Of a stretch of DNA of 64,000 nucleotides, positions 1 through 10,674 are shown piece by piece; the stretch's first letter is position 1; each line of letters opens with the position of its first letter. The stretch is taken from contig JAYWMQ010000003.1 in the NCBI GenBank assembly GCA_035873375.1, positions 1 through 64,000 of the forward strand, written 5' to 3'. A model generated the notes under the pieces. That model was given only the letters and a program-made list of their open reading frames with translations, was not told where the DNA came from and did not search any database. A program made the position numbers and the translations under genes. Source of the stretch: Nitrospirota bacterium. GTDB taxonomy: Bacteria > Nitrospirota > Thermodesulfovibrionia > Thermodesulfovibrionales > JdFR-85.

Positions 1-34
1 ATTCCTGAAATTCAGGCAATGCCTTTGTTGACAT
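1..34 (-). CDS. N-terminus of leftward gene, probable integron integrase (partial)
   Basis: On the minus strand an ATG at 34 follows a strong ribosome site (GGGAGGGTG, about 42-50) and reads MSTKALPEFQE before leaving the window. Eleven residues cannot identify a protein. The call rests on position: integron integrase genes are normally transcribed away from the cassettes, next to attI, and an attI-like site with cassettes begins 60 bp to the right. The PEFQEF-like start is, from memory, seen in environmental IntI proteins. Any other leftward gene remains possible. Confidence 0.5.
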   Translation of the reverse strand, partial: MSTKALPEFQE

Positions 35-91
35 TTTACACCCTCCCTTACAATTATCCAATATTATACGTATTACGTATTTGCTGATATT

Positions 92-229
92 ATGCCCTAA
101 ATACGAAAAACAATATTTTTTCTTTATGAAATAATCAATTAAAATAATCAATTAGAGTTGCATATGTTTCTAACGTGTGCTATAGTGTAAGGAAATTTAG
201 GGAGAAACAAGTAGTTCGTATATTAATTG
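92..229 (+). other. attI-like site with cassette promoter, copy A
   Basis: This 138-bp segment runs from TGCCCTA to the recombination base G229, where the first cassette (TTATACC) begins. It is repeated at 3085-3207, and the similarity stops exactly at the same G. The inner end, TTCGTATATTAATTG, recurs a third time on the minus strand at 54992-55006. It contains a good promoter (158-186) and a ribosome-site-like AGGGAG near 199-204. The length difference from copy B comes from a duplicated AATAATCAATTA here. Role as attI is inferred from the junction position and the flanking cassettes. Confidence 0.7.
158..186 (+). promoter_or_regulatory. Pc-like cassette promoter, copy A
   Basis: TTGCAT (158-163), 17-base spacer, TATAGT (181-186) with a TG just upstream of the -10. 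It points into the cassettes, as an integron Pc promoter should. Confidence 0.6.
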
Positions 230-1549
230 TTATACCCGAATAAAAAATTAAATAGGTACACAATATTGAGAACAGTATTAGCAACAGATTTGGGCATTTG
301 GCCACTCTTTCAGAATATGCACAAAGTATCTGATTTCATGGTCACTTCGAGAGAAGTAAAACGGTCTTTAGCTAACTACATACTTCTTTATGATCAAATA
401 TTTATACCCACAGGTAACTTACAAATATTGCCAGTTCTCCGTATGTTATTAGGTGAGAATATATTTGACGAACTTTTAAAAAACAACATTATCGTTTTAG
501 CACGTTACGACAAGTGGTTTTCATATGTAGGAAATGGAGGAGGATTGATTTTTTTCTCTACTAAATCGGGCGATGTAGAAAACAAACATAATCTATTTCA
601 CTCTTTTTTCTCCCCTTTAGATGAATGCATAGAAACAGCACTAATTAGCACCCACCCAAAATCAGATGCAAAAAGAAAAACAATATTAACTAACTTGTTG
701 CTTGATAAAGTAGTTCCAGTTACAAATAATATAAAACCTTCAACATTCAAAAATGAAACCTATCGTGATATCCAAGAAAGCCCTTACCTTAGAAATTTCT
801 TTTCATACAACAGTCGAGGTCGCCCACTATATAGGTTAAGGGGCATAAATAAAAACCAAGTAAGAACTTTCTCTCCTCATAATGATGAGGATGCGAAAAA
901 GAGTCCTGAAATTGCTGCTGTACTTCAAGCAGCATTTGATAACTTTATCTTAGGAATAGGTTCAGACGTATGCGCTGATGAAATCACAGGTGATGAATAC
1001 TCGCTCGCATTATTAAAGGCAAAAGGTCAGCGTGTTGGCATGCCTATTGAAGGTCAAAAAGCTTTTGCTCAAATCCAAGATATTTCAGGAGTCCCAGATA
1101 TTGGTTTAGCTTTCGCTGATAAACTAATTACAGCAGAGCAATTACTTGATTTACGTGAATCAAAACACGCTGAGGCATTTCGTACATGGCTTGGTGAGTC
1201 TAAGCCACAAGAATCACATGATGAAATTGTTAGAAGATATGTAGAATCTTTAGGTAAGCCTAGTTTAATCGAGTCTATCCCAGCTAAAACACTTCGATTT
1301 GCGGCAACAACAGGTATAGGAAGTCTTGAGCCTGTTGCTGGTGGTATAGCAAGTGCCGTTGATAGTTTTTTGTTAAGTAAGTGGTTTCCAGTTAAGTCAC
1401 CTAGGCTTTTCCTTAAACACGCTAAATCAGTTATTATTAAAAGTGATGAACAAAAATCACCTGGCCGTCCAAAATTAAGTGGAAGAGACAGAAATAGACC
1501 ATGTTCGTGTGGTAGCGGTCTCAAATATAAAAAGTGTTGCGGAAAATAA
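227..1549 (+). CDS. Cassette protein with C-terminal SEC-C zinc motif, function unknown
   Basis: The 440-residue reading frame is AT-rich and has no recognisable N-terminal domain. The last 20 residues carry a SEC-C motif (PCSCGSGLKYKKCCG), a zinc-binding module found at the end of SecA and many unrelated proteins. It fills cassette 1 (230-1632), and its stop lies one base before the attC R'' box, typical of cassettes. The start is uncertain: TTG 227 spans the attI/cassette junction, and TTG 266 or ATG 317 are alternatives, none with an obvious ribosome site. Expression would rely on the upstream Pc-like promoter. A defence or stress role is only a guess from cassette habit. Confidence 0.65.
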   Translation: MLYPNKKLNRYTILRTVLATDLGIWPLFQNMHKVSDFMVTSREVKRSLANYILLYDQIFIPTGNLQILPVLRMLLGENIFDELLKNNIIVLARYDKWFSYVGNGGGLIFFSTKSGDVENKHNLFHSFFSPLDECIETALISTHPKSDAKRKTILTNLLLDKVVPVTNNIKPSTFKNETYRDIQESPYLRNFFSYNSRGRPLYRLRGINKNQVRTFSPHNDEDAKKSPEIAAVLQAAFDNFILGIGSDVCADEITGDEYSLALLKAKGQRVGMPIEGQKAFAQIQDISGVPDIGLAFADKLITAEQLLDLRESKHAEAFRTWLGESKPQESHDEIVRRYVESLGKPSLIESIPAKTLRFAATTGIGSLEPVAGGIASAVDSFLLSKWFPVKSPRLFLKHAKSVIIKSDEQKSPGRPKLSGRDRNRPCSCGSGLKYKKCCGK

Positions 1550-1638
1550 GGTATAACAAGTGCATTAACATTGACCGCAAATACGCCGTTTCGCTTTGCT
1601 ACACTCTGTATTTACGTCAAGTTATGCAGGCGTTCGGC
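1550..1638 (+). repeat. attC site of cassette 1
   Basis: R'' GGTATAAC (1550-1557) is the exact complement of the cassette's first bases plus the crossover G (GTTATACC, 229-236). The arms fold as an imperfect palindrome: GCAT-AAC-TTGAC pairs with GTCAAGTTATGC, and GCAAATAC with GTATTTAC. Unpaired extra bases occur on one strand only, as in known attC sites. Right core is G1632/TTCGGC. Confidence 0.75.
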
Positions 1639-1693
1639 AACTATAAAATGGAAAAATTAAGAATCATTCGTTTGTGTCAATAGGAGGGCTTGC

Positions 1694-2380
1694 ATGAGCA
1701 AAAGAATAATAGATTCGCTCGATGTGCTACGACTAATTCGTGATTCTTATCAGAAGGATAATTCGCAAAAGGTAACTGATTTGCGAACCGGAGCAATAAG
1801 CATTATTGCTGAAAGAGGCGTTTATGACAAAACAGTCTATGCCCATCTGATCGGTAAAAATGTGCCTTCGAAGTTGCCAGCTGTTGTATTTAATGACTTG
1901 CTCAAAAATTGGTTGCAAAATAACTCAACAAAATTAAAAGACTGGTATTTACTTGATGCTGATCGACATGATAAAGTGCTTATTGAAGCTTTTTTTAGTC
2001 AACCTCAAGTTTTAGATACTCCCAAAGCCTCAGATATTAATGATCCTCCTGAGACTACTCGAATTGAGACAACAATATATCGAGTTTTACGTGATACAGC
2101 TCTTTCACGAGAAGTTAAGATAGCACAAAAATTTAAGTGTCAGCTATGTGCTAAAACTATTCAGTTAAGTGATGGTAGCTTTTATGCTGAGGCTCATCAT
2201 GTGAAGCCTTTAGGAAGACCATACAATGGACCAGATATAAAAGACAATATTATTTGCGTATGCCCTACTTGTCATGTGCTCTTGGATTACAAAGTAATAA
2301 GACTTGATCAATCTCAAATACCCAATGTATCGTCAGCTTATATCGACTACCACAACAATGAAATTTGTGGGCAAAAATAA
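1694..2380 (+). CDS. HNH endonuclease
   Basis: 228 residues with an ATG start 6 bases after a strong AGGAGG. The C-terminal third is an HNH nuclease domain: CxxC at CQLC, the catalytic AEAHHVKPL, then ICVCPTCH, which gives two zinc knuckles and the HH core. The N-terminal 100 residues are a predicted helical region I do not recognise. It would cleave DNA, possibly as a restriction or defence enzyme. It is the sole gene of cassette 2 (1633-2509), and the stop codon lies three bases before R''. Confidence 0.8.
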   Translation: MSKRIIDSLDVLRLIRDSYQKDNSQKVTDLRTGAISIIAERGVYDKTVYAHLIGKNVPSKLPAVVFNDLLKNWLQNNSTKLKDWYLLDADRHDKVLIEAFFSQPQVLDTPKASDINDPPETTRIETTIYRVLRDTALSREVKIAQKFKCQLCAKTIQLSDGSFYAEAHHVKPLGRPYNGPDIKDNIICVCPTCHVLLDYKVIRLDQSQIPNVSSAYIDYHNNEICGQK

Positions 2381-2383
2381 AAA

Positions 2384-2515
2384 TGCCGAACAAATTGATG
2401 GATGGAATGCGAACCAGCAGGCCTCTTTTTGACTTTGAATAGTTTGAGATTTGCAAATCGTTTTTTATGCACTTTGAAGTGCTTCAGGTTCGCATCCCTC
2501 ATCATGGCGTTATCA
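2384..2515 (+). repeat. attC site of cassette 2
   Basis: R'' TGCCGAAC (2384-2391) exactly complements the start of the same cassette (G1632 plus TTCGGCA). The main stem is ATGCGAACC with GGTTCGCAT, extended by GATG/CATC, and an inner GCACTT/AAGTGC hairpin lies within. Right core is GGCG/TTATCA with crossover at G2509. The length (about 131 bp) is in the range of long VCR-type attC sites. Confidence 0.75.
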
Positions 2516-2590
2516 AAAATTAAAGATTGATAGAGACAGGCTGATGACCGTTCGACATTTTATTGGTTTACAGATGAGAATGGAACGTTC
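2510..2590 (+). repeat. Cassette-head repeat, copy 1
   Basis: From TTATCAAAAATTAAAG onward about 75 bp match 4295-4372 with few differences. Both copies begin precisely at a cassette junction, so two cassettes share a head, which suggests a common ancestor. Downstream, 2591-2703 holds an open frame without a start codon (..DENGTFQVNFTDGDYW..) that I cannot assign. No attC matching this head is found, so cassette 3 is broken. Confidence 0.65.
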
Positions 2591-2703
2591 CAAGTGAACT
2601 TTACGGATGGAGATTACTGGGTATTTCTTGCCCTATGTGGGCTTCGCTTCGGGGTCATGGCTTGTTTCTTGCAATTTTACAACAAGACTGATAAAATCAC
2701 TGC

Positions 2704-2880
2704 ATGGCAAGACCGTTAAGAATAGAATATGAAAGGGCAGTATATCACGTAACCTCAAGAGGCAACACAGGGGAACCTGTGTTTATAGATGACGAAGACC
2801 GGGAAGAAGACATACTTGCAACAATAAAAAAAGTGAGGGACCGGTATAACTGGCTGTGTCACGGCTACTGTTGCATATTC
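2704..2880 (+). pseudogene. 5' fragment of a REP-associated (IS200-type) transposase
   Basis: The first 55 or so codons (MARPLRIEYERAVYHVTSRG, then DDEDRE) match the start of Y1/HUH transposases of the RAYT group, which nick single-stranded REP hairpins. Similarity ends at about 2875, where unrelated sequence follows; the reading frame continues to 2973 only by chance. The HUH and tyrosine catalytic regions are lost, so it is inactive. REP-like motifs at 5516 and 24615 may be relics of the same family. Confidence 0.75.
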
Positions 2881-2890
2881 CGAGGCAACC

Positions 2891-2959
2891 CGGCCACTGA
2901 TTCCAACGCAAAGCGGCCACCCATTCCAAAGTATTCCGGCCACCTATTCCAAGGGAAGG
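2891..2959 (+). repeat. Three tandem 23-bp repeats, IS21-type end remnant
   Basis: Units at 2891-2913, 2914-2936 and 2937-2959 each start CGGCCAC and contain ATTCCAA. Serial repeats of this kind form the termini of IS21-family elements, where the transposase binds. No istA or istB gene is present, so this looks like a solo end that truncated the transposase fragment before it. Family assignment is from memory of the pattern. Confidence 0.45.
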
Positions 2960-3084
2960 TGGGCGGGGTATAGAGGGAAAAAACTCTAAGCAAAATACCG
3001 ACCTCAGAAGCAGAAGCCGGCGCTGGTTATTTTCTGAAAAAAAGGTAGCCTGAGCCTTTTTAAATCGAAATGGGGAGGAACTGC

Positions 3085-3207
3085 TGCCCTACGGAAAACA
3101 ATATTTTTTTCCTTATAAAATAATCGATTCGTAGAGTTGCATATGTTTCTAAAGTATGCTATATTGAAGGAAATTTGAGGAGGAATAAGTAGTTTGTATA
3201 TTAATTG
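3085..3207 (+). other. attI-like site with cassette promoter, copy B
   Basis: A 123-bp near-copy of 92-229, ending at the same crossover base (G3207) and followed by cassette 4. It has a stronger ribosome site (GAGGAGG, about 3177-3183) and a TTG eight to ten bases further on that opens a very short frame ending at the junction. Two attI copies in direct orientation are unusual and imply duplication or recombination between platforms. Confidence 0.65.
3137..3165 (+). promoter_or_regulatory. Pc-like cassette promoter, copy B
   Basis: TTGCAT (3137-3142), 17-base spacer, TATATT (3160-3165). Same geometry as copy A, with a better -10. Confidence 0.6.
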
Positions 3208-3223
3208 ATATGTAAAAAAAGAA

Positions 3224-3364
3224 ATGAAAATTATCCGTGCAGAAAAAGAAAACGCAGAAGAAATATTAAAATTACAAAAAAATGCCTATCACAGCGAAGC
3301 TGAAATATACAATGATTTCTCCATTCCCCCTTTGACGCAAACTCTTGAAGATATCCAGAATTAA
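3224..3364 (+). pseudogene. N-terminal fragment of a GNAT acetyltransferase
   Basis: 46 codons, MKIIRAEKENAEEILKLQ onward, then AYHSEAEIYNDFSIPPLTQT. This is the usual opening of small GNAT N-acetyltransferases. A full enzyme needs about 150 residues including the acetyl-CoA site, all missing here. The frame closes with a stop at 3364, right before paired palindromes. It is the only protein-like content of cassette 4 (3208-3622). Confidence 0.6.
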
Positions 3365-3380
3365 ATTAATAACCTCCTAA

Positions 3381-3429
3381 CCTCCCTTTGCCAAAGGGAG
3401 GGTTTATCCCCCTCTTTGGCAAAGAGGGG
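3381..3429. repeat. Two adjacent perfect palindromes
   Basis: 3381-3401 has 10-bp arms CCTCCCTTTG and CAAAGGGAGG around one base. 3409-3429 has CCCCTCTTTG and CAAAGAGGGG around one base. They resemble each other and look like REP-type hairpins that cut off the acetyltransferase fragment. Confidence 0.7.
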
Positions 3430-3498
3430 CGAGGGGAGATTTTTAGATTGATGTCAATTCATTTATGAGACTTTTAATATATATGGAAAAAATAAAAA

Positions 3499-3628
3499 AC
3501 ATATCAATTTAATGGTCTTGAACGAGAGCCAGCGGTGACTGATTGGCTTTTGAGTGCTCTTATACATGGAAACAATATTTTGCTTTCGATTATCATACAG
3601 GCTCTCGTCAGACATCATAGCGTTAGGC
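3499..3628 (+). repeat. attC site of cassette 4
   Basis: R'' ACATATC (3499-3505) complements the cassette start (G3207 plus ATATGT), although both depart from the consensus. The main stem GA(a)CGAGAGCC/GGCTCTCGTC has an extra A on one side, then ATG-GTCTT/AGAC-CAT. Right core is a perfect GTTAGGC (3622-3628). Confidence 0.65.
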
Positions 3629-3654
3629 GATATAAAAACTGAAGAATAGGAAAG

Positions 3655-4230
3655 ATGATAATGTGGTTGCGGATTGGCTTGGGCATGTCAATAGGTATAT
3701 CGGTGATACTGGGCATATATGTCTTTTCTGAGATAAAGAAGACATATGACAAAAAAGGAACTTATACTAACAAGCTTCTGTCTCTTTGGTTTGCTATGTG
3801 GGCCTTCCACCATATTCCATTGATTCTGGCGTCATTCTATGGCGTGTGGCCGATACTGATCGACAAAACATTTGCTATGGCAGGAGGTTTGATTTTATTT
3901 GTAATTGGAGCAATCATATTGCCAATGGGAATGATTGAGTTCCGTTCGTTGCGTAGATCCACAGGACAAGATATCTCGAAGCTTATAACCACTGGCATTT
4001 ATCGGTGGAGCAGGAATCCGCAGTTTGTCGGATGGTTTTTCATGCTTTTTGGAATATCGCTTGCCGGGCGATCTGGGCTTGCATTTGCACTTACAGGCGT
4101 ATTTGCCATTGTGATTTATCTGTATACTATTCTGTTAGCGGAACCTTACCTTGAGAGTTTGTATGGAGAGGAGTATCGTTTATTCAAATTGAGAACTGCA
4201 AGGTGGATTGGGATACCAAGGAATAGATAA
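3655..4230 (+). CDS. ICMT/PEMT-like membrane methyltransferase
   Basis: 191 residues with about five hydrophobic segments. The C-terminal half carries the isoprenylcysteine/phospholipid methyltransferase signature: TTGIYRWSRNPQFVGW, then AEPYLESLYGEEYRLFK. Members methylate small or lipid-linked substrates at the membrane using S-adenosylmethionine; the substrate here is unknown. The gene fills cassette 5 (3623-4294). The start is ATG 3655 or the ATG two codons later, after an AGGAAAG. Confidence 0.75.
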   Translation: MIMWLRIGLGMSIGISVILGIYVFSEIKKTYDKKGTYTNKLLSLWFAMWAFHHIPLILASFYGVWPILIDKTFAMAGGLILFVIGAIILPMGMIEFRSLRRSTGQDISKLITTGIYRWSRNPQFVGWFFMLFGISLAGRSGLAFALTGVFAIVIYLYTILLAEPYLESLYGEEYRLFKLRTARWIGIPRNR

Positions 4231-4238
4231 AGTTGACA

Positions 4239-4300
4239 TCGCCTAACAACAGCATGCAGTGGACGGCGCAGTACGCCGCCGCTGATGCTGGGTATTATCA
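4239..4300 (+). repeat. attC site of cassette 5
   Basis: R'' TCGCCTAAC (4239-4247) is an exact nine-base complement of the cassette start (G3622 plus TTAGGCGA). The stem CAGCAT-CAG-GG-CGGCG pairs with CGCCGCCGCTGATGCTG and leaves three single extra bases (G, T, A) on one strand, the classical extrahelical pattern. The right core reads ATTATCA instead of GTTATCA, so the crossover base may be mutated. Confidence 0.75.
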
Positions 4301-4372
4301 AAAATAAAAGATTGATAGAGACAGGCTGATGACGGTCAGACATTTTGTTGGTTTGAAGATAAGAATGAAAAA
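4295..4372 (+). repeat. Cassette-head repeat, copy 2
   Basis: Matches 2510-2590 from its first base (TTATCAAAAAT) and again begins at a cassette junction. It leads into the NIPSNAP gene. Confidence 0.65.
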
Positions 4373-4402: not shown

Positions 4403-4708
4403 GTGGTCACTTGTTACTTGCGGTATGTAATTGATCCGTACAAAGTTGATGATTTTGAGAAGTATGCCAAAATGTGGATACCGCTCGTAAATAAGTTTGG
4501 GGGGACACATCATGGTTACTTCCTTCCATATGAGGGAGCAAATAATATTGCTTTAGCACTATTCAGTTTTCCAAGCCTATCAGATTACGAAAAATACAGA
4601 AAAAAAATAAAAAGTAATCCGGATTGTCAGGAAGCCTTTGCCCATGCTAAAAAAACAAGATGTATAATTAGTTTTGAACGAAGCTTCATGCGTCCTGTTT
4701 TCAAGTAG
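4403..4708 (+). CDS. NIPSNAP-family small protein
   Basis: 101 codons from GTG 4403, with AGGAGG seven bases upstream. The sequence fits the NIPSNAP ferredoxin-like fold: YVIDPYKVDDFEKYAKMWIPLV, then GGTHHGYFLP and the SLSDYEKYRKK helix. The biochemical role of single-domain bacterial members is unsettled. It lies in a cassette-like unit beginning at 4295, but no attC with a complementary box follows, so the unit probably lost its end before the methyltransferase gene. Confidence 0.7.
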   Translation: MVTCYLRYVIDPYKVDDFEKYAKMWIPLVNKFGGTHHGYFLPYEGANNIALALFSFPSLSDYEKYRKKIKSNPDCQEAFAHAKKTRCIISFERSFMRPVFK

Positions 4709-4771
4709 TGGAAAATACGGGTTATTTATTAGACTTCGAGATGAGACGTTGTGCTGATAAGTGAGGTGAAT

Positions 4772-5470
4772 ATGAGAGACCGTTTAACTTGGCAATTCAA
4801 TGAATTTAAACAGGTAGGCAAGGACTACAGCACCCCGAATGAGGTTGAGATGTACGATTCAAGCCATTCTGAATTCCGGAATATTGAACAAGAAAGCATT
4901 GCTGTTCTTGACACTCTTGGAATCGGTGAAAACGACGTAATAATCGACTTCGGTTCAGGGACAGGCACTTTTGCTATCCAGGCGGCGCTTCGATGTGCCA
5001 CAGTCTATGCCGTCGACGTTTCACAGGCCATGATCGACTACGCAAAAATTAAAGCTGAGAAGGCGGGTGTCTCAAATATTGTATTTTGTCACAGTGGATT
5101 TCTCGCTTTTGAATCTGATGGCCTTGCTGTAGATTTCATTACTACAACACTCGCTTTCCATCATCTACCTGACTTCTGGAAAGGAATAGCCTTAAATCGT
5201 ATGTACCACATGCTTAAACCCGGAGGTCAACTTTTTATTCATGATGCAATCCTTGAGGAACATCAGGCAATTGAGAATATAGCGTCCTTGATTGAAAAAC
5301 TGGCAGCAGCAGGTGGTGATTTTCTTCAACAAGACGCAGAAGGGCACTTTAGGGAAGAGTTTTCCACTTATGACTGGATTATGGACGAACTCTTATCACG
5401 AGCCGGATTCGTTATCAAGAGTAAGAGAATACAAGAAGGAGTGATTGGAACTTACTATTGCACTAAATAA
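4772..5470 (+). CDS. Class I SAM-dependent methyltransferase
   Basis: About 232 residues. Motif I IDFGSGTGTFAIQAA binds S-adenosylmethionine, followed by VYAVDVSQAMI, the FITTTLAFHHLPD motif IV region and LKPGGQLFIHD. This is the UbiE/small-molecule group; substrate unknown. I chose ATG 4772 (MRDRLTWQF) after GAGGTG; an upstream GTG at 4751 is in frame but less likely. AT-rich like the rest of the island. No attC follows, so it may mark the end of the cassette region or a captured gene. Confidence 0.8.
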   Translation: MRDRLTWQFNEFKQVGKDYSTPNEVEMYDSSHSEFRNIEQESIAVLDTLGIGENDVIIDFGSGTGTFAIQAALRCATVYAVDVSQAMIDYAKIKAEKAGVSNIVFCHSGFLAFESDGLAVDFITTTLAFHHLPDFWKGIALNRMYHMLKPGGQLFIHDAILEEHQAIENIASLIEKLAAAGGDFLQQDAEGHFREEFSTYDWIMDELLSRAGFVIKSKRIQEGVIGTYYCTK

Positions 5471-5980: not shown

Positions 5981-8650
5981 ATGCACTGGCAGATGGAAGC
6001 AGAAAAAGTCGCTGAGGTCCTGAAGACATCACCTCAGGGTCTTTCAAATGAAGAGGCACGTAAACGGCTCAGGGAGTATGGGCCAAACGAGCTTGTTGAG
6101 AAGAAGAAAAAAACACCCTTTGAAATGTTCCTTGATCAGTTCAAGGACTTCATGATCCTTGTACTCATTGGCGCTGCCGTTATTTCGGGGATTGTTGGTG
6201 AGGTTACCGATACCCTTGTAATTATTCTGATCGTTGTTATTAATGCTGTCATAGGGTTTGTTCAGGAGTACAGGGCAGAGAAGGCAATGGCGGCATTGAA
6301 GAAAATGGCAGCCCTGGCAGCAACTGTTGTGAGGGACGGGCAACCTGTTGATATCCCTGCATCAGAACTTGTCCCCGGTGATATTGTAATCCTTGAGGCC
6401 GGGAAGATAGTGCCGGCGGATATGCGCCTTATGGAGGTAGCACAGCTGAAGGTTGAAGAGGCGGCGCTTACAGGAGAGTCCGTGCCAGTTGAAAAGGTGG
6501 TAACGGCCCTGCATGACGAGAGCCTGTCCATTGGGGACAGGAAGAACATGGTTTATAAGGGCACTATTATTACCTACGGCCGCGGTCTTGCTATCGTTAC
6601 GGCAACCGGAATGAATACGGAGCTTGGCAGGATTGCCACAATGCTTCAGGATGAAGAAGCAGTAAAAACACCACTTCAGAAGAGGCTTGCAAAGTTCGGC
6701 CGTAAGCTTGCCATGGCCGTCCTTGCAATATGTGCCGTGGTCTTTGTCGTTGGTCTCCTCAGGGGAGAGCCCGTGATGTTGATGCTGCTCACTGCCATCT
6801 CCCTTGCAGTTGCTGCAATACCTGAGGCCCTCCCTGCTGTGGTAACCATCTCCCTTGCCATCGGTGCAAAAAAGATGGTCAAACAGAATGCCCTGATAAG
6901 AAAGCTCCCGGCCGTGGAGACCCTCGGCTCAGTGACCTATATCTGCTCTGACAAGACCGGAACCCTGACACTCAACAGGATGACCGTGGAGGAGCTTTAT
7001 GTTAACGGAGAGTTGCTTCGCGGTTCAGACCTGAAGGCCGATACTGATCAACTCGTTTCAGGCTCTCCCCTTCACCGTTTAATGACAGCCCTGGCATTAA
7101 GCAATGACGCCAGGAGCGGTGTTAACGGTAATATCATCGGAGATCCGACAGAGGCGGCCCTTTACTCCATAGCAAGGAAGCATGGTTTTGACAAGAATAA
7201 TCTTGAAAAGCTATTCCCGAGGGTGGCTGAGCTGCCCTTTGACTCAGAGCGAAAGTGCATGACTACCTTCCACAGGATGCCTGCCGACTCCCCTTTGACA
7301 TCAGGGGCTCCGGAGGCATTGACTGCAGGGGGGTATATCTCTTTTACAAAAGGCGCAATAGATGTACTGCTTGATAAATCAACCAATATCCTGACGGCCG
7401 CGGGATTGAAGGAGATAGACAGGGAAGAGTTGGAAGAGGTAAATGCGAGGATGGCAGCCGACGGACTCAGGGTCCTGGGGATTGCCTTCAGGTATTGGGA
7501 GAACCTGCCTGAAGTTCTGACCCCTTCCGATATTGAAAAGGAACTTACCATTGTCGGTCTTGTGGGCCTGATGGATCCGCCAAGGCAGGAGGCAAGGGAA
7601 GCAGTAGCTCTCTGCAAGGCGGCCGGGATAAAACCGGTAATGATTACAGGTGACCACCCGCTTACAGCGGAGACCATATCAAGGAGACTCGGCATCCTTG
7701 AAGACGACTCCGAGGCGATACTTACAGGACAGGAACTCGATGCACTCTCTCTGGAGGAGTTTGAAGAGAAGGTTGAGCATATCAGGGTCTATGCAAGGGT
7801 GGCTCCGGAGCAGAAATTAAAGATAGTAAAGGCGCTGCAGGACAAGGGCCAGTTTGTTGCCATGACAGGAGACGGGGTTAATGACGCCCCTGCCTTGAAG
7901 CGGGCTGATATCGGTATTGCGATGGGTATTACAGGAACGGATGTCTCCAAGGAGGCCGCTTCAATGATACTCATTGACGATAATTTTGCAACGATTGTAA
8001 AGGCCGTAAAGGAAGGCCGGAAGATATATGACAACATAAGGAAATTCATAAAGTACATGCTGACCACGAACTCGGCCGAGATATGGACACTCTTTCTTGC
8101 CCCTTTCCTGGGGCTTCCCATCCCCCTGCTGCCCATCCACATCCTCTGGATTAATCTTATGACCGACGGGCTGCCGGCACTTGCCCTTTCCGTTGAACCA
8201 GAGGAAGGTGATGTCATGAAGAGGCCGCCACGCCATCCCGGCGAGAGTATATTTGCCCATGGCCTCGGCATTCATGCCATCTGGGTGGGACTGCTGATGG
8301 CAGGTATTGTCCTGTCAGTGCAGGCGTGGACTATCAGGACGGAATCCGCTCACTGGCAGACCATGGTCTTTACAGTATTATGTATCTCCCAGCTCTTTCA
8401 TGTGCTTGCCATAAGGTCGGAAAAAGAATCGTCATTCAAGGTAGGTCTCTTCTCAAACAAGCCCCTTCTGGGTGCGGTAATATTGAGTTTCGGCTTGCAG
8501 ATGGCGGTTATTTATATCCCTTTTCTGAATCCGATATTCAGGACCGAGCCCCTGTCTGCAGGTGAGCTGGCGATTACACTTGCAGTCTCTTCTGTGGTAT
8601 TCTTTGCAGTAGAGGGTGAGAAATGGGTTAAAAGAAGGTACAGGAAGTAA
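5981..8650 (+). CDS. P-type cation ATPase (P2A, Mn2+/Ca2+ efflux type)
   Basis: 889 residues from ATG 5981 after AAAGGAG. Domain order is: cation ATPase N-terminal region, M1-M2, actuator domain with TGES (about residue 163), M4 with PEALP, the phosphorylation loop DKTGTLT (about 323), the nucleotide-binding domain, hinge TGDGVNDAPALKRADIG, and a C-terminal six-helix block. It is a SERCA/PMR1-like inner-membrane pump that exports or sequesters divalent cations using ATP. The manganese riboswitch directly upstream argues for Mn2+ as a physiological substrate; Ca2+ cannot be excluded from sequence. Confidence 0.9.
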   Translation: MHWQMEAEKVAEVLKTSPQGLSNEEARKRLREYGPNELVEKKKKTPFEMFLDQFKDFMILVLIGAAVISGIVGEVTDTLVIILIVVINAVIGFVQEYRAEKAMAALKKMAALAATVVRDGQPVDIPASELVPGDIVILEAGKIVPADMRLMEVAQLKVEEAALTGESVPVEKVVTALHDESLSIGDRKNMVYKGTIITYGRGLAIVTATGMNTELGRIATMLQDEEAVKTPLQKRLAKFGRKLAMAVLAICAVVFVVGLLRGEPVMLMLLTAISLAVAAIPEALPAVVTISLAIGAKKMVKQNALIRKLPAVETLGSVTYICSDKTGTLTLNRMTVEELYVNGELLRGSDLKADTDQLVSGSPLHRLMTALALSNDARSGVNGNIIGDPTEAALYSIARKHGFDKNNLEKLFPRVAELPFDSERKCMTTFHRMPADSPLTSGAPEALTAGGYISFTKGAIDVLLDKSTNILTAAGLKEIDREELEEVNARMAADGLRVLGIAFRYWENLPEVLTPSDIEKELTIVGLVGLMDPPRQEAREAVALCKAAGIKPVMITGDHPLTAETISRRLGILEDDSEAILTGQELDALSLEEFEEKVEHIRVYARVAPEQKLKIVKALQDKGQFVAMTGDGVNDAPALKRADIGIAMGITGTDVSKEAASMILIDDNFATIVKAVKEGRKIYDNIRKFIKYMLTTNSAEIWTLFLAPFLGLPIPLLPIHILWINLMTDGLPALALSVEPEEGDVMKRPPRHPGESIFAHGLGIHAIWVGLLMAGIVLSVQAWTIRTESAHWQTMVFTVLCISQLFHVLAIRSEKESSFKVGLFSNKPLLGAVILSFGLQMAVIYIPFLNPIFRTEPLSAGELAITLAVSSVVFFAVEGEKWVKRRYRK

Positions 8651-8694
8651 AGGGGTTATTGATATAAAAGCAGGTGCCTGTTAGAATTTAAATT

Positions 8695-10674
8695 ATGGAA
8701 ATAGCACTCTTAAATGACATTGTTGTTATATTTGCCTTATCCATTGCAGTGCTGTTTCTGTGCAGCAGGCTGAAGGTGCCCTCTATTGTTGGATTCATCC
8801 TGACCGGGGTATTGGCAGGGCCGCATGGGCTTGGCCTCGTGAAGTCGGTTCATGAGGTCCAGGCCCTGGCTGAAGTCGGGGTTGTTTTGCTACTTTTCGC
8901 TATAGGGATCGAATTCTCCCTGAAAAGCCTGCTGCAGATCAGGAAATCCGTCCTGCTGGGCGGTTCTCTCCAGGTTTTGCTGACCATACTGGCTGCATCC
9001 GTTATAGCGGCTCAATTCGGTCAGCCCATTGGTAAAGCGATCTTTATAGGGTTTCTTATATCCCTCAGCAGCACGGCTATTGTGCTCAAACTCATACAGG
9101 AAAGGGCGGAAGTAGACAGCCCCCACGGGCGGACATCTCTGGCCATACTGATATTCCAGGATGTCATCATTGTGCCGATGATATTGCTCACCCCGTTGCT
9201 GGCCGGAGAGTCGGGTGGTACAGGCGGGTCCCTCCTCATTCTTCTGGCCAAGGGAATCGCCATCATTGTGCTGGTGGTAGTCAGTGCCAAGTGGGTTGTG
9301 CCATGGGTGCTGTACCAGGTTGCAAGGACGCGCAGCCATGAACTCTTCCTGTTGAGCGTTTTTTTAATATGCCTTGCTGTTGCGTGGATGACTTCAAGTG
9401 CAGGGCTCTCCCTTGCCCTGGGTGCCTTTTTGGCAGGTCTGGTTATATCCGAATCTGAGTACGGTCATCAGGCGCTTGGTAATATCTCGCCCTTTCGGGA
9501 TGTCTTTACAAGCTTCTTTTTTGTCTCGATAGGGATGTTGTTTGACGGGGGATTCCTTTTTGAGCATCCTGTCCTCATTCTCCTGATTACTGTGGCCGTC
9601 ATGATAGTAAAAGCTGCATTGGCAGGCTTTTCAGCAACTCTGCTCGGGTTTCCTGTACGTACTGCAATCCTGGTCGGATTTGCACTCAGCCAGGTGGGAG
9701 AGTTTTCTTTTATCTTGTCTAAAACCGGTCTTGAACATGGATTGCTTGAGGGGAATGTTTATCAGATGTTTCTGTCTGTATCTGTTCTCACCATGGCTGC
9801 AACACCATTTGTGATGGCCTTTGCGCCGCGGGTGGCGGATTTTGTTTCCCGGCTGCCTTTACCTGTACGGTTGAAGAACGGTCTGCATCCGGTGCAGGTA
9901 ATAAAGGTTGAAAGCAAAAAAGACCACCTTGTTATCATAGGCTTCGGTGTTAACGGCAGGAATCTGGCACGCGCCGCCAGGGTGGGAAGTATCCCCTATG
10001 TTGTCATCGAGATGAATCCCGAGGTAGTAAGGAATGAAAGGGCAAAGGGTGAGCCGATTTATTATGGAGATGCAACACAGGAGGCCGTGCTCCAGCATGC
10101 AGATATCAAGAATGCGAGGATTGTTGTAGTGGCCATATCCGACCCGGCTGCAACCCGCAGGATTACCGAACTTGTCCGGAGGCTTAATCCGAACGTTCAT
10201 CTTATCGTACGGACCCGTTATCTTCAGGAAATGAAGCCCCTCTATGAATTAGGAGCCAATGAGGTTGTTCCCGAGGAGTTTGAGACCTCGGTGGAGATAT
10301 TTTCCCGGGTTCTGGGAAAATATCTTGTCCCAAGAGACGAGATCGAGCGGTTCATTGCCGAGGTACGTTCAGACGGTTATGAGATGCTCCGGAGCCTTTC
10401 CGGAAAGCACGTATCTTTTCCCGATCTGAAGCTTCACCTTCCCGGCGTTGAAGTGAGTGCTTTACGGGTTAAAGAAAAGTCTCCACTGGTTGGTAAAACA
10501 CTGGCCCAAGCCGATCTGAGGAAAAAACATGGTGTTACTGTAGTGGCAATACGCAGGGATTCACAGATATTGTCCAATCCGGATGGAGACTCGCAGATTC
10601 GTGCCGGAGATGTACTCCTCATCCTTGGTTCACCGGAGAAGATTGCCGCTGTCTCCGGCTTGTTCTATCCCTGA
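8695..10674 (+). CDS. CPA2 monovalent cation:proton antiporter with RCK domains
   Basis: 659 residues. Residues 1-385 form a 12-13-helix Na+/H+ exchanger domain of the KefB/YbaL type (GFILTGVLAGPHGLGLV, SLSSTAIVLK). A TrkA-N Rossmann domain follows (VIIGFGVNGRNLARAA, about 412), then a TrkA-C domain near the end (SALRVKEKSPLVGKTL). It should exchange K+ or Na+ for H+ under nucleotide or ligand control at the inner membrane. It lies 44 bp after the ATPase in the same direction and may share its transcript. No clear ribosome site precedes the ATG. Confidence 0.88.
   Translation: MEIALLNDIVVIFALSIAVLFLCSRLKVPSIVGFILTGVLAGPHGLGLVKSVHEVQALAEVGVVLLLFAIGIEFSLKSLLQIRKSVLLGGSLQVLLTILAASVIAAQFGQPIGKAIFIGFLISLSSTAIVLKLIQERAEVDSPHGRTSLAILIFQDVIIVPMILLTPLLAGESGGTGGSLLILLAKGIAIIVLVVVSAKWVVPWVLYQVARTRSHELFLLSVFLICLAVAWMTSSAGLSLALGAFLAGLVISESEYGHQALGNISPFRDVFTSFFFVSIGMLFDGGFLFEHPVLILLITVAVMIVKAALAGFSATLLGFPVRTAILVGFALSQVGEFSFILSKTGLEHGLLEGNVYQMFLSVSVLTMAATPFVMAFAPRVADFVSRLPLPVRLKNGLHPVQVIKVESKKDHLVIIGFGVNGRNLARAARVGSIPYVVIEMNPEVVRNERAKGEPIYYGDATQEAVLQHADIKNARIVVVAISDPAATRRITELVRRLNPNVHLIVRTRYLQEMKPLYELGANEVVPEEFETSVEIFSRVLGKYLVPRDEIERFIAEVRSDGYEMLRSLSGKHVSFPDLKLHLPGVEVSALRVKEKSPLVGKTLAQADLRKKHGVTVVAIRRDSQILSNPDGDSQIRAGDVLLILGSPEKIAAVSGLFYP

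Follow-up and report, generated by a model that had tools for sequence, protein, structure and literature searches.

The usual picture of an integron is that of one integrase serving one attI platform, and several described systems depart from it. Clusters of attC sites lacking an integrase (CALINs) are thought to be degraded integrons (PMC9024848). In Xanthomonas there are integrons in which intI is truncated or lost while the cassettes remain; these occupy a single ilvD platform, and attI copies do not appear to be reported for the CALINs elsewhere (PMC12444791). In class 1 and 2 integrons, DattI-type cassettes have an attC-unit-attI layout in which a partial attI (up to 244 nt, DattI2) replaces the attC within the array, and they are excised and inserted by IntI1 (PMC12901181). 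Gene-less promoter cassettes are known from Vibrio superintegrons (PMC11014356). According to the authors of IntegronFinder, attI sites outside class 1 go undetected. This leaves a blind spot, as promoter-attI segments that lack intI (referred to here as heads) remain unseen by standard tools. Few integrons have been recorded for Nitrospirota.

We analysed a stretch of 64,000 nucleotides from a Nitrospirota bacterium (the window), which is the start of contig C3. This contig, C56, C19 and the other contigs cited by a C number alone belong to one genome (G000), which is 99.3% complete. Window positions 1-4370 would represent the remnant of a chromosomal integron, consisting of an intI stub, a promoter (Pc), attI, two cassettes, a second promoter-attI pair and two more cassettes. 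We consider it likely (probability about 0.72) that this is a decayed, integrase-less integron, the promoter-attI modules of which have been dispersed and relied on an integrase that acted in trans or was present in the past. With at least two attC sites and no intact intI adjoining, the array resembles a CALIN. It differs from the CALINs described (PMC9024848) in that attI and a putative Pc are retained, and in that heads of two attI lineages number about 11 in one genome. The array adds multi-copy promoter-attI heads to this known kind of decayed integron; independent mobility of the heads is a less certain reading. A full-text literature search, covering few subscription papers, returned no description of multi-copy attI modules. 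About 11 heads of two lineages in a genome without integrase indicate that landing sites are able to survive and increase in number independently of the enzyme, which raises the testable question whether IntI acts in trans on scattered attI sites.

Cassettes and attC sites at the start of the window

The original prediction had recognised four integron cassettes in this region from the complementarity between each cassette start and a box heading its own attC. All four were recovered at the predicted places, on the forward strand. Cassette 1 (230-1632) starts with GTTATACC at 229, the exact reverse complement of the box at 1550-1557 (8 nt, the crossover G being included here and below). The start of cassette 2 (1633-2509), GTTCGGCA at 1632, pairs in the same way with the box at 2384-2391 (8 nt). 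For cassette 3 (3208-3622), GATATGT at 3207 corresponds to the box ACATATC at 3499-3505 (7 nt), and for cassette 4 (3623-4294), GTTAGGCGAT at 3622 corresponds to the box at 4238-4247. The last match extends over 10 nt and not over nine as had been counted, while the other three lengths stand. The corresponding attC sites span 1550-1638, 2384-2515, 3499-3628 and 4238-4300. Canonical attC sites are polar, the L'' arm being the one that carries surplus unpaired bases. The extra bases noticed earlier on one strand conform to it: in all four sites, two to three of them are found on this arm.

It has to be considered that such complementarities and hairpins might arise by chance or from unrelated repeats. 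The region is AT-rich and contains many weak palindromes, and our home-made hairpin scan is unspecific by itself, so that start/box matching and a covariance model were used. When each unit was randomised by Markov shuffling with its 7-nt start held fixed, some 7-nt match followed by some hairpin downstream was obtained in 1.5-8% of the shuffles, but a match and hairpin as good as the observed one never occurred in 2000 shuffles for any of the four units. The attC covariance model was trained on 18 attC sites, all from other genomes to avoid circularity. It has exactly three matches in the 64 kb (E<=10), all at predicted sites: 4241-4300 (39.8 bits, E=1.7e-6), 1551-1638 (25.1 bits, E=0.003) and 2385-2515 (24.2 bits, E=0.005). 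The covariance check that had been proposed thus succeeds for three sites and fails for 3499-3628, which has no match in the window at this cut-off. The box of that site ends in ATC instead of AAC and covaries with the GAT core of its cassette start at 3207. Shuffles and covariance model together refute chance or unrelated repeats as the source of the boxes and hairpins, and we assign this explanation practically no weight. Judged by these features, the window opens with a genuine bacterial integron array, in which attC sites bound the cassettes.

The cassette contents agree with what had been proposed. Cassette 1 carries an ORF at 227-1549, the start of which is probably internal, for a protein of 440 aa with a C-terminal SEC-C motif. 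Cassette 2 (ORF 1694-2380) codes for an HNH nuclease which is closest to restriction enzymes acting on modified DNA (type IV / phosphorothioate). The product of cassette 4 (ORF 3655-4230) is a membrane methyltransferase of the PEMT/ICMT type. As had been noted, stop codons lie close to the boxes (1549, 2380 and 4230), but this holds only for units 1, 2 and 4. Unit 3 is devoid of an intact ORF and contains a degenerate reading frame of 46 codons together with a 27-bp inverted repeat (3376-3434), part of which recurs near the head on C2.

The four units do not form one unbroken array. Units 2 and 3 are separated by 2510-3207, which is not a normal cassette and had been missed when the units were called consecutive. 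This segment has an attC crossover at its left and an attI at its right end, with a promoter at the 3' end. Its last part (3090-3207) is a second head, about 80% identical to 100-229, with a promoter at 3137-3165 (TTGCAT-17-TATATT) and an attI core at 3189-3207 (crossover G^AT). The architecture is that of DattI-type cassettes; those, in contrast, are resistance cassettes of mobile integrons with intact intI (PMC12901181), whereas here a conserved promoter accompanies the attI piece, which recurs at other places on the chromosome. There is also a likeness to the gene-less promoter cassettes of Vibrio (PMC11014356), as units devoid of an ORF might supply internal promoters, but here the unit ends in attI and not in attC, and its promoter copies the platform's own Pc. 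Within the segment, a truncated ORF (2704-2970, beginning MARPLRIEYERAVYHVTSRGN) has no Pfam or NCBIfam match; we take it to resemble the start of REP-associated transposases. Positions 2661-2720 are 98% identical to C20:331-390.

The left end of this segment (2510-2585) is 88% identical to 4295-4370, which follows the last attC. In a similarity search this 76-bp tail was found in these two places only, both inside the window. The tails may be the right half of an empty attI or, equally, a duplicated truncated cassette. The crossover after the last attC is mutated from GTT to ATT (4294). Past the last tail, genes for a NIPSNAP-type protein and a methyltransferase follow at 4403-5470, and no attC was found behind them.

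Remains of the integrase gene

A leftward ORF at the start of the window had been interpreted as the beginning of an integrase gene. This is correct as far as the start is concerned, but the gene is truncated. Contig C56 ends in 121 bases that agree exactly with window positions 1-121, and a divergent frame (MSTKALPEFQEFLRARKIVPDRKVPFYAHWVSKF...) spans the join. It starts at window position 34 (MSTKALPEFQE..., positions 34 to 1 on the reverse strand); among the integron integrases of relatives, the matching part is the N-terminus (53% identity over 47 residues). On C56 it stops after about 55 codons in all, with parA-parB further out. When the genome was searched by tblastn with the integrases of relatives, matches beside a head were obtained on C56 and C19 (53-54% identity over 46-47 aa), the remnant on C19 comprising about 41 codons.

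The 99.3%-complete genome yielded no intact intI, contrary to the expectation that a search to the left would reveal one. Two of its tyrosine recombinases are matched by the integron integrase model with scores under the cut-off, and the NCBIfam cut-offs assign them to XerC and XerD. Among the 150 relatives searched, 38 have an integrase over the cut-off, but in the window's genus, with six genomes, there is none. Since the gene is truncated on C56 and no intact copy was found elsewhere in the genome, the intI to the left of the window is a fossil, and the array alone does not make a working integron platform. A complete integron would have an intact intI, and with none of any kind present the array does not belong to the mobile integrons of classes 1-3 either.

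One might argue that the integron is complete, canonical and active, its integrase lying immediately beyond the contig end or on a plasmid that was left out of the bin. The window does begin at a contig end, and the exchange of cassettes at another head of the genome (C54, see below) would be in line with an active enzyme. However, the exactly overlapping contig C56 has the stub only, followed by parB, and no IntI above the cut-off was found in this genome or in the remaining five of the genus. We thus regard a complete active integron as improbable, although draft MAGs break at arrays, several heads are located at contig ends, and an unassembled or plasmid-borne intI may exist. Supply of the integrase in trans from a plasmid is possible also for the decayed, integrase-less integron that we favour.

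The integron integrases of the order are mostly 420-510 aa long (loci L050-L079, e.g. L085:1685-3004), while IntI proteins typically have 320-340 aa. About 110-170 extra N-terminal residues precede the SAM-like domain, with no Pfam match in the two that were tested. Against the integron integrase model NF011946, the L085 protein scores 290 bits versus a cut-off of 435. In a relative (G011:C43, L028/L162), an intI pseudogene lies beside an attI head; its N- and C-terminal pieces are detectable and the middle is not.

Promoter-attI heads in the genome and in relatives

In front of cassette 1, a promoter and an attI-like site had been proposed. The attI core (GTAGTTCGTATATTAATTG, 211-229, crossover after G229) has copies in the same genome, and homologous cores occur beside intact intI genes in three genomes from other families of the order (G103, G047, G089), where the sites diverge from the integrase gene. 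By this homology the proposed site is probably a primary attI site. The putative promoter (158-186) is TTGCAT-17-TATAGT with an extended -10 motif (TGC), and it is kept in nearly all solo heads. A plain consensus scan for promoters does not perform above chance and does not list 158-186, so that the putative Pc is supported by conservation and position.

When the 130 bases before G229 (class A) were compared with the genome, seven strong copies were obtained: C3 at 229 and 3207, C19, C2, C54, C28 and C12. An eighth, diverged copy on C21 is followed by a cassette and then by an attC box which matches the cassette start over 12 bases. When the cassette starts belonging to other matches of the attC model were located, a second attI lineage (class B, ACAGAAAACTG..ATTAACTTG^TT) emerged on C44 and C19 and, more diverged, on C56, with start/box matches of 8-9 nt. 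The class-B attI is similar to that of another integrase clade (G091), and C9 begins with a stub of an integrase of this type. This dispersal, about 11 heads from two lineages in one genome, had not been anticipated. Many attI heads or attC sites occur near contig ends (C56, C44, C21, C37, C28, C12, C54), so that the assembly is probably broken up by array repeats and the number of copies is to be read as a minimum.

Outside the window, exact box matches did not suffice to chain cassettes at most heads. The covariance model detected attC sites at C19, C28 and C21 and none within reach at C2, C12 and C54. Since, in addition, the first attC on C19 does not match its cassette start, some cassettes at these heads are decayed or fused. 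The second unit on C19 (L019, reverse complement of about 7226-10124) is cassette-like, is located between two attC model matches downstream of an intI-free attI head, and carries the anti-phage system Thoeris (ThsB-ThsA-ThsB). Other pairs of attC sites, with start/box matches of 10 nt, were seen at G000:C13:11102-11699, with no head found on C13, and at C19:1222-2302.

Class-A heads without intact intI nearby are present in G091, G098, G082, G136 and G017, two attC sites following downstream in G082. They were also encountered in G002, G003, G004 and G011 and at four places in BMS3Bbin05. One head is located in a Desulfobacteraceae MAG. The head on C54 has an orthologous locus in a sister species (G004). 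The two loci have a 1.1 kb flank and the head in common as far as G^TT exactly, with no relation beyond it. The cassettes at this head therefore changed after the species split, and cassette content at such a site differed between sister species. Neither assembly contains an integrase, although that of G004 reaches only 78% completeness; the integrase acted in trans or was later lost in both. Near the family's orthologues of parB (flanking the head on C56) and pyk (flanking that on C2) no head was found, many of these contigs ending close to the gene. Within the genus, a search for an empty site at parB revealed a rearranged neighbourhood and no clean junction.

Copying of heads that lack intI

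It is conceivable that every head is an independently decayed full integron, copied or acquired repeatedly, with intI deleted each time and no intI-free module ever having moved. This would fit the graded remains of the gene: it is intact in G103, represented by N- and C-terminal pieces in G011, reduced to about 55 and 41 codons on C56 and C19, affected by deletions on C28 and C12, absent from C2 and, for class B, a stub on C9. The left edges of the heads vary in the window's genome, which would also fit the decay of several full copies, and loss of intI is common elsewhere, as in Xanthomonas (PMC12444791). However, the heads on C12 and C28 have one deletion junction in common (CCGG|ACACCCTCC / ACACGCTCC) although they are at different loci. 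Moreover, BMS3Bbin05 and the MAG DRR093003 contain an intI-free module of about 310 bp (89-97% identity) between unrelated flanks, which has a constant left edge (AAGGCCATAGGG) and always ends at the attI crossover. In view of the common junction and the constant left edge, intI-free heads appear to have been copied, at least in these two cases, and we consider purely independent decay unlikely.

For the decayed integron with dispersed modules that we prefer, cassettes would have entered each head by IntI-type attI x attC recombination, with the integrase present or acting in trans. The Pc of each head would transcribe the adjoining cassettes, and intI-free heads would have spread as small modules. 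This scheme is built on features read from the sequence: attC sites, start/box complementarity, attI homology, truncation of intI, absence of an intact IntI from the assembly, and dispersal of the heads. We propose only tentatively that promoter-attI modules of about 0.1-0.3 kb are mobile landing pads which multiply without intI in genomes and inside cassette arrays. If so, one integrase in trans could serve many loci, and arrays would gain fresh internal promoters. The right edge of the modules could be explained by IntI recombination, while none of the explanations tested accounts for the left edge.

Modules of this kind are found inside attC arrays or in place of part of an attC, a third observation that speaks for copying of intI-free heads. 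At one locus of BMS3Bbin05 (BMS_b), a cassette (GTTAGCGA...TCGCTAAC) retains its matching box, but its attC is cut after about 25 nt and the module takes its place. In DRR093003 (L088), a validated attC lies directly to the left of the module. The layout with an attC crossover at the left and an attI replacing the attC at the right thus occurs in window 2510-3207, in L108 (6365-7455) and in L088 (1632-1981). The 349-bp unit of L088 ends in attI, and so it is not a gene-less promoter cassette in the sense of an ORF-less unit ending in attC. By analogy with the DattI-type cassettes handled by IntI1, all three units might be excised and inserted by an integron integrase.
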